From the NCBI GenBank assembly GCA_029553375.1, contig JAKPCH010000096.1, forward strand, positions 111,382 through 175,381: a stretch of 64,000 nucleotides of DNA, read 5' to 3'. Origin of the DNA: Deltaproteobacteria bacterium. GTDB taxonomy: Bacteria > Desulfobacterota > Syntrophia > Syntrophales > UBA8958. Shown here piece by piece: positions 11,190 through 18,790 of this stretch (positions are counted from its first letter, which is position 1; each line of letters starts with the position of its first letter). The translations under genes were made by a program, and so were the position numbers. A model generated the notes under the pieces. That model was given only the letters and a program-made list of their open reading frames with translations, made no database searches and was not told the origin of the DNA.

Positions 11190-12130
11190 GAGGAAGCCCC
11201 CCTCTCCCTTTTCCGTACCTGGACCACCTTCCCCGATCCCTTCCCACGGTCCCGCAATCGTTCCGCCACGGCCAAGACGGTGGCCACGTAGCTGTGACTG
11301 TGGTTATATTCCCAGACGGCCCTGTACCGCTGACCATGATCGGCCCGGCACGTCCAGCCCCGGCGGCTCAAATAGTTGGCGATACTGTGAAGGGCGTCGG
11401 CGGTCTCGAAGGGGTCGGGGTAGCCCTTCCCTTGAGTATCGACCCCGTATTTCCCCACATTCGATGGCATGAACTGACAGAGTCCGATGGCTCCGTAGGG
11501 AGAACCGGGGATGTTCAGGGGGTCGCGGCCGCTTTCCTCGGCGTAGCGCAACAGGTGGACGAGCTCGTTGTAGGCCCACTCACCCTTCGCCCGGCAATGG
11601 GCCCGGGCGTAGGCCTCATCATCGGGTGCCCTGAGAGACGCCGACAAATGAGGCCTCACCAGGTCGAAGTCGGAGGCCAAGGCCATGCTGGAAAGGGTCA
11701 CGAAGGCCCTCTCCCGGCCAACGTTCTCACCGAGACGGGTCTCGACGAGAAGGACGGAAACGACGACCTCCGGGGGCACACAGTACCGTTTCTTGATCTT
11801 TTCGAGAACTTCTCTGTTATTCCTCTTGAAGTCCCTGGCCGCGGCGATGGCGCCGGCCTTGAGACAGCGGCGGTAGGGGGCCGCCCGCCGGGGCCTCACG
11901 GGGTCCTCGGGGGACCGGACGTCACGCTTTTTCAAGAAGGCCTTCACCTTGGCCGTCATGGGGCGGGGATCGAAGCGGACGGCGGGATGGGAGTAAAGCT
12001 CCTTCAGACGGGCCTCGTCGAAGGCCTCCCCTCTCAAACGCTCGATGAGGGGCGTCCATTCCGTCGCAGAAGACGTCCCGGGAAGAATGGAAAGGGCGAT
12101 GACGATAAGCGCAAGTAGTTTTGCCCTCAC
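11186..12130 (-). CDS. MltB-like lytic murein transglycosylase
   Basis: This is a predicted exported peptidoglycan lytic transglycosylase of the MltB/GH103 type (SLT_2 fold), which cleaves glycan strands with formation of 1,6-anhydromuramic acid. The 314-residue product has a signal peptide (residues 1-22) with no lipobox. The catalytic glutamate is probably in [14 protein letters not shown] (about residue 131). Further family blocks are [20 protein letters not shown] and [12 protein letters not shown]. It overlaps both mutS and mlaE by about 4 bp, an unusual coupling of cell-wall, lipid-transport and repair genes. Confidence 0.86.
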
Positions 12131-14751
12131 GTGAGTCTCTCCTTCCAGGCGGATAGGCGGGTGAGGGCCTCGAGGGGCGTCAGGGAAAGGACGTCCGTAT
12201 CCCGTATCTCCCGCAGCACCCCCTCCTCCTCCGTCATGAAGAGGCTCAACTGCTCCGGAAACCTGGATCTGCCCCGCGCCCTCGTCGCTGCGAACCGGGG
12301 TTTACCCTCCAGGTCGAGCTCCGCCCTCTCCAGGTTCTTCAGGATCTCTCCCGCCCTCTGAACCACCTTCTCGGGGACACCGGCCAGACTGGCCACTTGG
12401 ATGCCGTAACTTCGGCTCGTACCCCCCTCCATGATCTTCCTGAGGAAGACGATCTTGTCCCCCCACTCCCGGACGGCGATGTTGTAATTCTTCACCCCCT
12501 CCCTCGTCGCCGCCAGTTCCGTCAGTTGATGGTAATGGGTGGCGAAGAGGGTGCGGCTCCCCAACCTCTCCTCGTCATGGATGAACTCCGCCACGGCCCA
12601 GGCGATGCTGAGGCCGTCGAAGGTGCTCGTGCCCCTGCCGACCTCGTCGAGGACGATGAGGCTGCGCTTGGTGGCGTTTCTCAGGATGTGGGCTACCTCC
12701 CTCATCTCCACCATGAAGGTGCTCTGCCCCCGATAGAGGCGGTCCGAGGCCCCGATGCGGGTGAAGATGCGGTCCACGACCCCGATGCGGGCCCGGGACG
12801 CGGGGACAAAGCCGCCCACCTGGGCCATGAGGCAGATCAGGGCGACCTGGCGTATGTAAGTGGACTTCCCCGCCATATTCGGCCCCGTGATGATGAGGAA
12901 ACGATTCTTCTCGTCGTCCATATAGACGTCGTTGGGGACGAAACGTTCCTCCAGGTCCATGCGCTCGACCACGGGATGGCGGCCGTCGCGAATATCGATC
13001 ACGTAGCCGTCGTCCACCTCGGGTCGGCAGTAATCGTACCGCTGGGCCACCTCCGCCAGTGAGCAGAGGACGTCCAAGTCGGCCAGACAAGAGGCCGTCT
13101 TCTGTATGAGGCCGATCCGGGAGGAAACGGTGGAACGCACGTCGCAAAAGAGGTCGTACTCCCTCTGGATCCTCCTCTCGTCGGCACTGAGGACCTCTTG
13201 TTCGTATTCTTTCAGGGACTCGTTGATGTACCGCTCGGCATTGACGAGGGTCTGTTTCCGTACATAATCGCTTGGCACGAGATGGGTGTTGGCCTTGGTC
13301 ACCTCGATGTAATAGCCGAAGACGCTGTTGTACCCGACCTTGAGGGAGGCGATGCCCGTCCTTTGTCTCTCCGCCGCCTCCAGGGCGGCGATGTTCTTCT
13401 TGCCGTCCCTCGAGAGGGCGATAAGCCTGTCCACCTCTTGATCGTACCCCTCGCGGATGATTCCCCCCTCCCGCAGGGAAAGGGGCGGGTCGGCGGCCAC
13501 GGCCCGCCGGATGAGGGACAGGGTCTCGGGCATCTCGTCGATGCCGTCACGGATCGAATCCAACAAGGGGTTTCCTAGGCCCTCAAGGAGGGCCTTGATG
13601 CCGGGCAGGGCCTCCAGGGACGCGGCCAGGGCATTCAGATCCCTGGCGTTGGCCGTCTCCATGGCGATGCGGGCCGCCAGCCTCTCCAGGTCATAGACTC
13701 CCGACAAGGCGCGGCGGAGATCGTCCCGTCTCAGATGTTCGTTTTTCAGGACCTCCACCGCCTTAAGGCGCGACTCGATCCTCTCCGGATCCGCCAGGGG
13801 ATAGTTGAGCCACCACCGGAGACGTCGTCCCCCCATGGCCGTCACGGTCTCGTCGAGGACCTCGAGGAGGGAACCCCGCCGCCCCCTCTCGCCGGCCGAG
13901 GAAAGGATCTCCAGGTTTTCCCTGGCCGTCTCGTCCACGATCATGTACCTCCCCCGGCGGTAGTCTTCCGGGGCCTTCAGATGAACGAGGCCTTCCCCCT
14001 GGGTCTCTTCGGCGTAACGGAGAACCGCCCCCGCGGCGGCCAGCACCGCCGGCCTTGAACGCAGAGCCCCGTCTTCACCGGCGGCTCGGGGGAACCTCCG
14101 TTCCAGCCTTTCCTCGGCCGTCTTCCAGTCGAAGTACTCACGGGGCAGGCGGTCGATCCTCACGGGACCGCCTTCACCACCCGCGAGGTCCTCGAGGACG
14201 GCGACACAACCCCCCTTTTCGGGGATGATCATCTCCCGAAAGCCCCACCGGACCGCCTCGGAGAGGAGGTCTTGATAGTCTTCGCACGCACCGACCCTAA
14301 AGTCGCCCGTCGAAACGTCCAAAAATGCCAGGCCCACGACTCCGTCCACCTCGCAGGCCGCGGCGACGAAATTGTTCTCCTTCGCTTGGAGGTTTTCCTG
14401 GTCGAGGACCATCCCGGGCGTCACCACCCGGACCACCTCCCTCTTCACGATCCCCCTGGCCTTTCGGGGGTCCTCCATCTGCTCGCAGATCGCCACCTTG
14501 AAGCCCTTCTCGACGAGGCGGGCGATGTAGCCGGAGGCCGAGTGCCACGGAACGCCGCAGAGGGGGACGGCATTTTCCTTGTTCCGGTCCCGGCTGGTGA
14601 GGGTGATGTCGAGGATCCGTGAGGCCGTCACGGCGTCGTCGAAAAACATCTCGTAGAAATCACCCATGCGGAAGAAGAGGATGCAATCGGGGTAGCGGGA
14701 CTTCAGCGCCAGGAACTGTTTCATCGCCGGGGTCAGGTCGGCTACTCCCAT
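12127..14751 (-). CDS. mutS: DNA mismatch repair protein MutS
   Basis: MutS recognises base mismatches and small loops and starts methyl-independent or MutL-dependent repair. The chosen ATG at 14751 gives 874 residues starting [13 protein letters not shown]; an open frame extends 24 codons upstream without homology. Mismatch-binding motif [10 protein letters not shown] lies near residue 34. The ATPase has Walker [15 protein letters not shown] (about residue 630), an ST-rich [14 protein letters not shown] block and FATHYHQL. The start overlaps the preceding holin-family gene by 10 bp and the stop overlaps the transglycosylase start. Confidence 0.96.
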
Positions 14752-15134
14752 CGACCCCGCCTCTTTTTCAAATCGATGTAATCGACCCGACCTCGGTCGC
14801 CGACGAAGGCGCTCAGGAGCCAACTGACGAAACTGATGACCAGGGCCCCCAGAACGGACGGCCAGAAACCCGTCACCTCAAAACCGGGAATGACGGCGGA
14901 GGTCATCTTCAGGAGAAGGGCGTTGATAAGGAAGGTGAAGAGACCCAGGGTGAGGATGTTGATAGGGAGGGTGATGATGAGGAGGATGGGTCGAAAGAGG
15001 GCGTTCATCAAGCCCAAGAGGGCGGCCGCCAGGAAGGCCGCGGAGAAACCGCTTACCCTGACCCCGTCGATGACGTATGCCGCCGCCGTGATGGCGGCCG
15101 TCAGGATGAGCCAGCGTAAAAGGATTCCCCTCAT
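14742..15134 (-). CDS. Phage-holin-family (superfamily IV, PF04020-like) membrane protein
   Basis: This 130-residue integral membrane protein has about four hydrophobic segments (residues 5-25, 31-55, 57-80 and 93-115) and the family pattern of the so-called 4-TMS phage holin superfamily [21 protein letters not shown] followed by [15 protein letters not shown]. Despite the family name, chromosomal copies are widespread and their function is unknown; there is no sign of prophage here. It lies 9 bp after rubrerythrin and overlaps mutS by 10 bp. Confidence 0.85.
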
Positions 15135-15143
15135 GATCCCTTT

Positions 15144-15647
15144 CTACATGCTTATGAACTGTTCCTTCTTGGCATTGCAGATGGGACACTCGTCGGGCAG
15201 GAGACCGTCGGATACGTAACCACAGACCTTGCAGATGTAATAGGTCGTCTCCCGTTCCTCCATGAAGTGATTCATGGCCTCCTTGTAGAGCTTGGCATGG
15301 ATCTCTTCGACATCGCGGCTCTGGCTGAAATGGAGGACCGCCGCCCGGTTCCCCTCCGACTCGGCCAATTTCACGAATGAGTCATAGGCCACCTCGGCCA
15401 CCTGCTGCTCCGATTCGAAACTGGCCTTCAGATTCTCCTCAGTGGTACCGATCTCCTTCAACAACCGGAGGGCCCGGGCGCCGTGGATCTCCTCCGAGAC
15501 GGAGACGGCCCGAAAGAGTTTGGCCATCTGGGGGTAACCTTCCTGTTCGGCCTTGTCCGCGTAAAGTTTCAGACGCAGGGCCGCCTTCGCCTCACCGGTG
15601 TAAGCCTGATGCAGGGCCTCTCTGATCTTATCCACCAAGACCTCCAT
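15144..15647 (-). CDS. Rubrerythrin
   Basis: Rubrerythrin reduces hydrogen peroxide in the cytosol of anaerobes using a diiron centre and a rubredoxin domain. The 167-residue product has a ferritin-like four-helix bundle with metal-binding glutamates in the AYTGEAKAALR, SVSEEIHGARAL and DVEEIHAKLY motifs, and a C-terminal rubredoxin-like domain with YICKVCGYV and DECPICNA (residues 136-160). The ATG at 15647 is preferred over an in-frame TTG one codon earlier. Adjacent rubredoxin and flavodiiron genes support an oxidative-defence role. Confidence 0.94.
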   Translation of the reverse strand: MEVLVDKIREALHQAYTGEAKAALRLKLYADKAEQEGYPQMAKLFRAVSVSEEIHGARALRLLKEIGTTEENLKASFESEQQVAEVAYDSFVKLAESEGNRAAVLHFSQSRDVEEIHAKLYKEAMNHFMEERETTYYICKVCGYVSDGLLPDECPICNAKKEQFISM

Positions 15648-15687
15648 CAAAAAATACGGCCGAAAACCAAAGGTCCGACCTTATGCG

Positions 15688-15846
15688 TCACGCCGGGCTA
15701 AATTCTTCCTTTCCCGACCCACATATGGGACACGTCCAGTCTTCGGGAAGATCCTCGAAAGGGACACCCGGGGGTATACCCCCGTCGGGGTCGCCCTTCT
15801 CGGGATCATACTCATAACCACAGATGTTGCATACATACTTACCCAT
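15688..15846 (-). CDS. Rubredoxin
   Basis: This small 52-residue redox protein has the two iron-binding pairs of rubredoxin: [12 protein letters not shown] (Cys6 and Cys9) and [14 protein letters not shown] (Cys39 and Cys42), with the conserved [10 protein letters not shown] stretch between them. It is likely the electron carrier between NAD(P)H oxidoreductases and the flavodiiron protein or rubrerythrin encoded beside it. The 48 bp on its upstream side separate it from the hemopexin-repeat gene; rubrerythrin follows 40 bp later. Confidence 0.95.
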
Positions 15847-15894: not shown

Positions 15895-16626
15895 TTACCA
15901 GACCAGCCCCGGCCAGGTCTGGCTGTTAATTTTCTTCGGATAGCCCCCGTCGGCCCTGTCGTCGGCGATATCGTAGCGGATGTACTGATCTCCACGGAAG
16001 AAATAAAGCTTACCGTTGCCCCAGTTGATCACGTCGTCGATGCCGTCCGTCCAGATCATTCCGGGCCAGGTCGCGTCGTTGATGGGTTTGGGGTAACCCA
16101 TATCGACCTTGTTCTCCTCGATATCGTAGCGTAGGTACTCACCCCCCTTGAAGAAATAGACCTTCCCCTTCCCCAGGTTGACGGCGGCGTCGATACCGTC
16201 CGTCCAGGGGAGCCCCGGCCAGGTGTATTCATTGATCGGCATGGGGGTGTCGGGCTCGGCCTTGTCAAGTTTCATATTGTACCTGATGAATTCCCCCCCT
16301 TTGAAGAAGCAGGCGATACCACCGCCCCAATTGACGACGGCATCCACATCCTTCCAGGGGAGCCCCGGCCAGGTCTCTTGATTGATCGGCTTCGGGTACC
16401 CCGGATCGGGTCTGTCTCCCAGGACCTCGTCGTCCAGATCTGGTCTGACGGTGTAGCGGAGGTATTGCCCCCCCTTGAAGAAGTAGGCCTTTCCGTTACC
16501 CCAGTTAACGGCGGCCCCCACCTGCTTCTCGTGATCGTACCGCTCCGCTTGCACGGCCCCGACCCCCAAGGTCAGGCCCAAAACAACGGCGGCGAAAATC
16601 GCCATGCCTATCCTTGCCTTCATCAT
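15895..16626 (-). CDS. Secreted four-blade hemopexin-repeat protein
   Basis: This 243-residue exported protein has a signal peptide (about residues 1-28, ending VGAVQA) and then four hemopexin-like repeats, each about 50 residues. Each repeat has a D-A-V-NWG-GK core, YFFKGGQYLRY-type strand and a P-INxxTWPGLPW closing motif, which should form one four-bladed propeller. The ATG pair at 16626/16623 directly follows the flavodiiron stop and a G-rich Shine-Dalgarno. Hemopexin repeats in other proteins bind metal, heme or matrix ligands; the ligand here is unknown. Placement between flavodiiron protein and rubredoxin suggests a periplasmic or surface role in redox defence, which is inference. Confidence 0.85.
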   Translation of the reverse strand: MMKARIGMAIFAAVVLGLTLGVGAVQAERYDHEKQVGAAVNWGNGKAYFFKGGQYLRYTVRPDLDDEVLGDRPDPGYPKPINQETWPGLPWKDVDAVVNWGGGIACFFKGGEFIRYNMKLDKAEPDTPMPINEYTWPGLPWTDGIDAAVNLGKGKVYFFKGGEYLRYDIEENKVDMGYPKPINDATWPGMIWTDGIDDVINWGNGKLYFFRGDQYIRYDIADDRADGGYPKKINSQTWPGLVW

Positions 16627-16628
16627 GA

Positions 16629-17858
16629 TCACCCCCCCTGTTCCCCCTCTGATCCCTCCATGGTCTTCAGACATTCCTCCCCTATCCTGGCCCCCAGGGC
16701 GACACACTCGGCCAGGGCCCGTTCATCGGGGACCTGCCTCACCCGGAGGGGATCGGCCAGGACCCTCACGTTCATCTCCTTCATGATCTCCGTCAGATGA
16801 ACCGCCGCTTCCCCGCTCCAGCCATAGGACCCAAAGGCCGCGCCCACGAGATTGCGGGGCCTGAGGCCTTTCAGATAGGTCATGACGTCGGCCACGGCCG
16901 GCAGCATCTGGTTGTTCAGGGTGGAGGAGCCCACGACGAGGGCGCCGGCGTCGAGAATCTCGTAGGCCACGTCGCTGCGGTGATTCGTGTCGAGGGACAT
17001 CACCTTGACCTCAAGGCCCTTATCGGCCATTCCCTCACCGATGTGCCTGGCCATGGTTTCCGTGCTGTGCCACATCGTCCCGTAAACGACAACCCCCTTG
17101 GGCCCCGGTTCCTGGGCCGCCCAGCGGGCGTAGTTTGCCAGGGGCCTTTCCAGGTCGCGCCGCCAGACGGGCCCGTGATCGGGGGCGATCATGTTGATGG
17201 TGAAACCGGAAGCCTTGACGCGGTCGAGGAGCTTGGCGACAAGGGGGGCGTAGGGAAGGAGGATGTTGGCGAAATACGTGCCCCCCTCGTAATCGAGGAC
17301 GGCGGGATCGATCTCGTCGGCGAACCGGGCCGAAGACGCCAGGTGCATCCCAAAGGCGTCCTGGGAAAATAGGACGCCCCCCTCTTCAAGGTAGGAGATC
17401 ATACTGTCGGGCCAGTGGAGCATCCTCGTCTCCAGAAAGGTGAGGGACATGTCGCCCAGGGACATCTTCTCCCCATCCCTGACGGCCTTGACGGCCACGG
17501 CGTCGTGGAAGATCTCCTTCAAGGCCTTGGCGCCCATGACGGAGGCGTAAACCTCCTTCGGGCGGACGGCCTGGAGGGCCCGCGGCAAGGACCCCGAATG
17601 ATCCATCTCGGCGTGATGGGAGACGACGACCTCGATGCGGGCGGGATCCACCACCGAGGCGATCCTCGCCATCATCTCCTCGTAGAACGGCTCCCGAACC
17701 GTGTCCAGGAGGGTGATCTTATCCGCCACGATCAGGTAGGCGTTGTAAGTGCTCCCCCTTTTCGTGCGATAGCCGTGAAAATCCCTGATGTTCCAATCCA
17801 CGGCCCCCACCCAGTAGACCCGCTCGGCGATCTTGACGGCCTTGTAGATTCCCTTCAT
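16629..17858 (-). CDS. Flavodiiron protein (FprA/A-type flavoprotein; oxygen or NO reductase)
   Basis: This cytosolic 409-residue enzyme reduces O2 to water or NO to N2O. The N-terminal metallo-beta-lactamase domain (about 1-250) has the diiron ligand motif HHAEMDHSGS (about residue 83) and HWPDS; the C-terminal flavodoxin domain (about 260-400) has VVYGTMWHSTETMARHI and the SYGWSGEA FMN loop. The ATG at 17858 begins MKGIYKAVKIAERVYWVG, matching family N-termini; an open frame extends 20 codons further upstream. It lacks a fused rubredoxin domain, so the nearby rubredoxin is the likely donor. A good promoter lies about 32 bp upstream. Confidence 0.93.
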   Translation of the reverse strand: MKGIYKAVKIAERVYWVGAVDWNIRDFHGYRTKRGSTYNAYLIVADKITLLDTVREPFYEEMMARIASVVDPARIEVVVSHHAEMDHSGSLPRALQAVRPKEVYASVMGAKALKEIFHDAVAVKAVRDGEKMSLGDMSLTFLETRMLHWPDSMISYLEEGGVLFSQDAFGMHLASSARFADEIDPAVLDYEGGTYFANILLPYAPLVAKLLDRVKASGFTINMIAPDHGPVWRRDLERPLANYARWAAQEPGPKGVVVYGTMWHSTETMARHIGEGMADKGLEVKVMSLDTNHRSDVAYEILDAGALVVGSSTLNNQMLPAVADVMTYLKGLRPRNLVGAAFGSYGWSGEAAVHLTEIMKEMNVRVLADPLRVRQVPDERALAECVALGARIGEECLKTMEGSEGEQGG

Positions 17859-17889
17859 GACAAACCCCGTCCCGATAAATATTGGTCTT

Positions 17890-17918
17890 TCTCTAACATC
17901 CCCCATCCCCGGTGTCAA
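17890..17918 (-). promoter_or_regulatory. Candidate sigma-70 promoter of the flavodiiron-mutS-Mla run
   Basis: Read on the minus strand, TTGACA (17918-17913) is followed by 17 bp and TAGAGA (17895-17890). The predicted transcript would start about 25 nt before the flavodiiron ATG. It could drive the whole close-packed gene run down to 7715. Confidence 0.55.
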
Positions 17919-17929
17919 TCCGTTATGGC

Positions 17930-18790
17930 CTACTCGGCCTCACCCTTGGCCTTGGGGATTATATCGGGGGAAGGGGTCCCGGCCTCCTTTTTCCATTTTT
18001 CGACCTCCCGTTCCAGCTCTTTCATCGCCTGCGGGTCGTGGTTCACCAATCCCCCCTCGCCGCCGGGAGGCTCGTTTATAATCTCCTCGTACTCGGGGAT
18101 GACGATCCCGCGGCGAACCATGATACCGTAGATCCTCTCGGCCCTTCTCTCCACGTAACTCCCCCCTGTGAGGGGGTTGTATTTTAATGGATTGGGCAAT
18201 ACGGCGGCCAGTCGAGCGCTCTCCATGGCCGAGAGCTCCGACGCCGGTTTACCGAAATAGTGGCGGGCCGCCGTCTCGATGCCGAAGATCCCGTCACCCC
18301 ACTCGACATAATTCAGATAGAGCTCGATGATGCGCCTCTTGGAGAGGTTCCTCTCCAGGCGATAGGTCAACACGGCCTCTTTGAGTTTCCTGACAGGGTT
18401 CTTGTGGGGCGTGAGGTAAAGGTTCTTGGCGAGTTGCTGACTGATGGTGCTCCCCCCCGCCTTGAAAGACCCCTTCTTGAGGTCCTTCTCCAGGGCCTTC
18501 TGGATGGCGTCGAAATCGAATCCCTCATGGGCCCAGAACTTGTCGTCCTCGGCGATGATGACGGCCTTGACGGCGTAAGGGGATATCCTGGAGAGGGGAA
18601 CGTAACGCTGGCGGATCTTCATCTTCCGACCCTGTTGTTCCCACTGGCGCTCCCGATACTCCATAAAGGATGTTTTCTGGGGATTCTTACGCTTCAGGGC
18701 CGCCACGTCGGGGTAGAAGGCGTAAGACCCGACATAAACCGTCCCGGCGACCAGGATCAGGACCATGATCAAGAGGACCTTCTTCAACAA
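17930..18790 (-). CDS. mtgA: Monofunctional peptidoglycan glycosyltransferase
   Basis: This membrane-anchored GT51 enzyme polymerises lipid II into glycan strands. The 286-residue product has one N-terminal transmembrane helix (about residues 4-25), catalytic motif AEDDKFWAHEGFD (about 80-92) and the family blocks GGSTISQQLAKNLYLT, RRIIELYLNYVEWGDGIFG and ARLAAVLPNPLKYNP. It has no transpeptidase domain. The C-terminal 40 residues are charged and proline-rich. It lies upstream of the flavodiiron gene on the same strand, with a 71-bp gap carrying that gene's own promoter. A weak promoter of its own (TTCCAA, 17 bp, TATAGG at 18829-18824) is possible. Confidence 0.92.
   Translation of the reverse strand: MLKKVLLIMVLILVAGTVYVGSYAFYPDVAALKRKNPQKTSFMEYRERQWEQQGRKMKIRQRYVPLSRISPYAVKAVIIAEDDKFWAHEGFDFDAIQKALEKDLKKGSFKAGGSTISQQLAKNLYLTPHKNPVRKLKEAVLTYRLERNLSKRRIIELYLNYVEWGDGIFGIETAARHYFGKPASELSAMESARLAAVLPNPLKYNPLTGGSYVERRAERIYGIMVRRGIVIPEYEEIINEPPGGEGGLVNHDPQAMKELEREVEKWKKEAGTPSPDIIPKAKGEAE

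Follow-up and report, generated by a model that had tools for sequence, protein, structure and literature searches.

Serum hemopexin is built of two propellers, with its histidine heme ligands between them. The propellers of the matrix metalloproteinases (MMPs) and of vitronectin are domains of larger animal proteins, and the plant hemopexin-fold albumins (CP4, 3oyo; the Dolichos albumin, 6ix1; LS-24, 3lp9; and the Cicer albumin, 3v6n) are stand-alone single four-blade propellers. DC25 of Dolichos is presumably the protein of PDB entry 6ix1. DC25 is reported to bind a heme analogue and to have a peroxidase activity that is blocked by iodoacetamide, which its authors assign most probably to Cys21 (PMC6934871). 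Among bacterial proteins, the photopexins of Photorhabdus combine two hemopexin domains with a PA-IIL lectin domain and are presumed iron scavengers (PMC2422844). The literature searched, some of it available only in part, said little about what bacterial hemopexin propellers do, photopexins being the one described case. The search, in which subscription journals were thinly covered, gave nothing in titles or abstracts on the protein described here and no paper joining flavodiiron and hemopexin; for hemopexin together with deltaproteobacteria, only antibiotic-cluster work matched.

The protein described here, HPX (243 amino acids), is encoded at 15895..16626 on the minus strand of the window, the whole 64,000-nucleotide stretch of a Syntrophales genome that was analysed. 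Its intact open reading frame (ORF) contains four PF00045 stretches, each above the curated cut-off (Pfam; E 2.6e-42, 143 bits). There is no Pfam match other than PF00045, the propeller being the whole mature protein, and an NCBIfam search gave no family above its cut-off. HPX is the sole hemopexin protein of the host genome, with four repeats above the PF00045 cut-off; one further PF00045 match in the genome is sub-threshold. A Sec-type signal peptide was read from the sequence ahead of residue 28 (residues 1-27; 16546..16626, minus strand), using a simple cleavage pattern and not a signal-peptide program, and the same pattern fits ten of ten orthologues. The sequence contains no lipobox and no C-terminal anchor, and HPX is probably exported to the periplasm or the cell surface. 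The signal peptide and four hemopexin repeats recognized in an earlier note on this DNA are confirmed by the cleavage pattern and by the four PF00045 matches.

The gene order on the minus strand is a monofunctional peptidoglycan transglycosylase (17930..18790; PF00912), a flavodiiron protein (FDP, 16629..17918; PF19583 and PF00258), HPX, rubredoxin (Rd, 15688..15846; PF00301, with NCBIfam RubredRD above its cut-off), a rubrerythrin-type protein (15144..15650; PF02915 and PF21349) and, after it, a small PF04020 membrane protein and MutS (12127-15134). HPX therefore lies directly between the flavodiiron and rubredoxin genes, as the earlier note had it, and all are on the minus strand. The HPX start is 2 bp past the FDP stop codon, with the ribosome-binding site within the end of FDP, and the gap between HPX and Rd is 48 bp. 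This spacing makes it probable that HPX shares a transcript with the genes for oxygen and peroxide defence. Against this stands a terminator-like site at the end of HPX (15905-15890), though such sites are in general excess (12 versus 4.1 expected). A promoter scan gave two sites where chance predicts 1.7, and the one on the minus strand falls inside HPX. Both in the family and in five outgroups, MutS and the PF04020 gene remain linked to FDP-Rd-rubrerythrin.

An AlphaFold2 model of HPX, built from an alignment of 12 sequences, is a four-blade propeller (mean pLDDT 87.3, pTM 0.81), with low confidence up to residue 30 and near residues 61-70. Its best fold matches are the plant albumins 3oyo and 6ix1 (both Z 24.5). 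All four plant albumins listed above match with Z 23.8-24.5 at 22-25% identity; they stand alone as HPX does but, unlike HPX, are seed proteins. MMP14 (3c7x) matches with Z 23.9, other MMPs with Z 19.2-23.2 and vitronectin with Z 21.9-22.3. Identity to HPX is 28-30% for MMP14, MMP2 (1gen) and vitronectin (Z about 22-24), although their propellers belong to larger proteins and that of HPX does not. Serum hemopexin, which has the repeat family in common with HPX but differs by its two propellers, reaches Z 18.0-18.9 (18.6-18.9 for single propellers). The next unrelated fold appears only at Z 9.2, compared with Z 18-24.5 for solved hemopexin folds. A sequence search agrees with the fold, matching MMP14 with E 2.9e-23 (profile E 6.9e-25). 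The structure prediction proposed earlier as a check for a four-blade propeller was thus borne out (pLDDT 87.3, Z to 24.5), and as modelled HPX is a canonical single four-blade hemopexin-fold propeller.

HPX shares bacterial hemopexin repeats with the photopexins but, unlike them, has no PA-IIL lectin domain (Pfam). Stand-alone bacterial proteins from outside the host's family (L010-L014 and L022) share with it an N-terminal signal stretch and four repeats (47-62% identity), but they lack FDP or Rd neighbours, the blade-2 cysteine and the blade-1 insertion described below. Mean blade-to-blade identity is 74-85% in seven non-family proteins versus 55-65% in the HPX family. In L010-L012 the blades are nearly identical (mean 84-85% identity), a sign that one blade may have been re-amplified recently. 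Ten long hemopexin ORFs were also hand-picked from 40 loci. Five have a second domain of known type above cut-off (FecR, VWA7_N, CsgG/LpoB-like, phosphodiesterase and SLT); of the others, one has DUF433 above the cut-off and peptidase M43 narrowly below it, and the remaining four contain hemopexin repeats only. The CsgG/LpoB-like domain is fused to hemopexin repeats in L020 (5398-6480), which comes from the same order as the host. Hemopexin propellers are thus often modules of larger secreted bacterial proteins, which argues for a general binding module.

Matches to the HPX protein were found in 14 of 100 genomes searched (host included), ten of them among the 11 genomes of the host's family and four elsewhere in the order, and in five of 395 genomes spread across the phylum (host included). 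With the Pfam model, PF00045 repeats exceed the cut-off in ten of the 11 family genomes, G001 having none. A contig scan gave 40 loci encoding HPX relatives: 34 are non-family loci from many phyla and six belong to the family (L006, L007, L008, L009, L016 and L025), carrying the labels Syntrophus, Syntrophobacterales or delta-proteobacterial MAGs. Host HPX (P0001) and its family orthologues share 53-69% identity. In dN/dS analysis of nine sequences, from which the three-blade orthologue of G006 was left out, the seven of 36 pairs with dS < 0.7 gave 0.10-0.17, indicating purifying selection. Since there are orthologues in nine other family genomes and dN/dS is low, HPX is no chance ORF; gene and cluster are both genuine, the gene is conserved and its fold is ordinary.

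FDP is widespread in the order, with a match at E 1e-40 in 83 of 100 genomes. HPX is beside FDP in eight of the 30 best-scoring FDP loci, all eight in the family, and is missing from 22, of which 21 have Rd in the stretch examined (the exception is L088). Longer stretches from five outgroups show FDP-Rd-rubrerythrin-holin-MutS without HPX. The absence of HPX from most FDP loci and from the outgroup blocks indicates that the FDP-Rd-rubrerythrin block is the older part and that HPX joined it later. FDP, Rd and rubrerythrin were found beside HPX relatives at none of the 34 non-family loci (tblastn, E 1e-6; several stretches are only 3.5-7 kb), and mechanical ORF listings revealed no shared neighbourhood around 11 of these loci. 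The earlier suggestion that this neighbourhood be sought in other anaerobes therefore has a divided answer, as it is conserved in related anaerobes of the family but not beyond them.

In a six-gene tree, G001 is sister to G000 and G003 (support 97.8/93), which group together with support 98.4/98. When MutS and the transglycosylase are omitted, these supports drop to 93.9/65 and 94.1/71, respectively, and the outgroups no longer firmly form one group (45/61); in a MutS-only tree G001 is on a long, open branch. The HPX tree repeats the split of G000 and G003 from genus g3. As G001 groups with G000 and G003, one gain of HPX and one loss in G001 is the simplest account. Two independent gains in the family are less likely, given the placement of G001 inside it. 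On this account, HPX arrived no later than the base of the host's family and has since passed down by vertical inheritance.

FDP adjoins HPX in eight of the ten family genomes that have HPX, the exceptions being G002 and G003, which retain HPX without FDP there. In G002, only a decayed FDP remnant lies just ahead of intact HPX, with a C-terminal fragment (E 2e-7) and perhaps also a bit of the N-terminus (E 0.041). A gene that by eye is methyl-accepting chemotaxis-like lies between the transglycosylase and HPX (L093 5078-7430), and the sole FDP-sized match in this genome is 37% identical and located elsewhere. G003 has no FDP match at E 1e-40, only shorter lactamase-fold proteins, and HPX sits between the transglycosylase and Rd. 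Rubrerythrin is absent from the G003 locus; a 30% match lies at another place in the genome, as is also the case in the four other genomes searched. Conversely, FDP, Rd and rubrerythrin are present in G001, from which HPX is absent. HPX with FDP lost in two family genomes, and FDP without HPX in a third, rule out HPX as an obligate partner of FDP and weaken the partnership suggested in the earlier note; being encoded next to FDP does not turn a protein into its partner. Rd adjoins HPX in all ten family genomes with HPX, and this place could reflect a real tie to redox genes, but the adjacency is weak evidence for one because no family genome lacks Rd there anyway.

Nine four-blade family proteins agree at 102 of 216 mature positions. 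Comparison of these nine with six non-family stand-alone relatives showed that only D63, G70, C106 and Q236 are both constant within the family and missing from every one of the six. A family-specific eight-residue insertion in blade 1 holds D63, with G70 just after it. C106 (codon at 16309..16311, minus strand) is cysteine in ten of ten orthologues and replaces the tyrosine of the blade 2 YFF motif, which is tyrosine in all six non-family relatives compared. It is the only mature cysteine in nine of the ten orthologues, G002 having a second. The invariance of C106 exceeds what a plain scaffold needs.

The balance tips slightly towards HPX being an exported binding scaffold that is made together with the oxygen defence. 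HPX would have entered the older FDP-Rd-rubrerythrin block and from then on shared a transcript with oxygen and peroxide defence; its entry into the block and its vertical inheritance make co-transcription with the defence genes probable. Like its solved relatives, it may hold a structural ion in its channel, while its loop surfaces, including the blade-1 insertion, may bind an envelope protein or glycan that is relevant when oxygen appears. Such a protein would act neither through FDP or the oxygen-reducing chain nor as a bis-histidine heme carrier. The family is a stand-alone, vertically inherited bacterial hemopexin propeller with a fixed genomic place. This place, the losses in both directions (FDP without HPX and HPX without FDP) and two mutable features make a role for HPX during oxygen exposure in anaerobes directly testable.

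The earlier note held binding of heme or metal possible; heme binding of the hemopexin type is not supported by the orthologues. Histidine is absent from six of the ten mature proteins and occurs once, at differing places, in each of the other four, so that none is common to all. In addition, with four repeats in all within 243 amino acids, HPX has one propeller instead of the two of serum hemopexin. As there is no conserved histidine, bis-histidine ligation is not a property of the HPX family, and a histidine-ligand heme carrier is ruled out. HPX might instead be an extracytoplasmic scavenger of heme or metal tied to oxidative stress, using tyrosine, Cys106 or stacking on an aromatic face. 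The family name and fold are in keeping with this, as are the 9-12 tryptophans and 10-16 tyrosines in each of the ten mature orthologues and the reports of heme analogue binding by DC25 (PMC6934871) and presumed iron scavenging by photopexins (PMC2422844). However, scavenging is unlikely given the single propeller without a conserved histidine, and given that serum hemopexin ranks as a fold match below the plant albumins, MMPs 1, 2, 12, 13 and 14, and vitronectin.

It is distinctly unlikely that HPX is an extracytoplasmic thiol protein in which Cys106 reacts with peroxide, as a peroxidase or redox sensor, forming the envelope arm of the defence. Cys106 is among only four family-specific invariant positions and is the sole mature cysteine in nine of ten orthologues, and a plant hemopexin-fold protein, DC25, is reported to have the iodoacetamide-blocked peroxidase activity described above (PMC6934871). 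However, Cys21 of DC25 follows YFFE in blade 1 and Cys106 of HPX is in blade 2 (compared by eye; PMC6934871), and therefore Cys106 is not at the place of Cys21. The parallel between the two is a lead, not a test. Moreover, Cys106 has a strand position between blades, where it is probably buried, and a resolving cysteine is missing. A form of this proposal, in which HPX was recruited into the oxygen-defence operon and gained C106 and an acidic loop, becoming a peroxide-reactive extracytoplasmic peroxidase or redox sensor and so the envelope arm of FDP-Rd-rubrerythrin defence, in an evolution independent of the cysteine chemistry of DC25, is quite improbable.

A role in the cell wall, as partner of the peptidoglycan transglycosylase encoded two genes upstream, is likewise very doubtful. 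In all ten HPX-bearing family genomes the transglycosylase is upstream, in G003 immediately upstream, and hemopexin repeats are fused to a CsgG/LpoB-like domain in the same-order relative and to SLT in another. In contrast, G001 keeps the transglycosylase in the same place without HPX, FDP usually intervenes, and CsgG/LpoB is a broad fold. Least probable of all is that HPX is a passenger, brought to the locus as a mobile propeller gene and having nothing but a transcript in common with its neighbours. The addition of HPX to an older block and the unrelated contexts of non-family relatives speak for this; against it, HPX has kept its place while the family diverged to 53-69% identity, is under purifying selection and begins 2 bp past the FDP stop.

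The orthologue of G006 (G006:C248; L016 6001-6576) has 192 amino acids and only three hemopexin repeats, and gave pLDDT 43 when folded without an alignment. This form may have arisen by blade loss, recombination or misassembly. The non-family loci L018 and L019 likewise show three hemopexin repeats.
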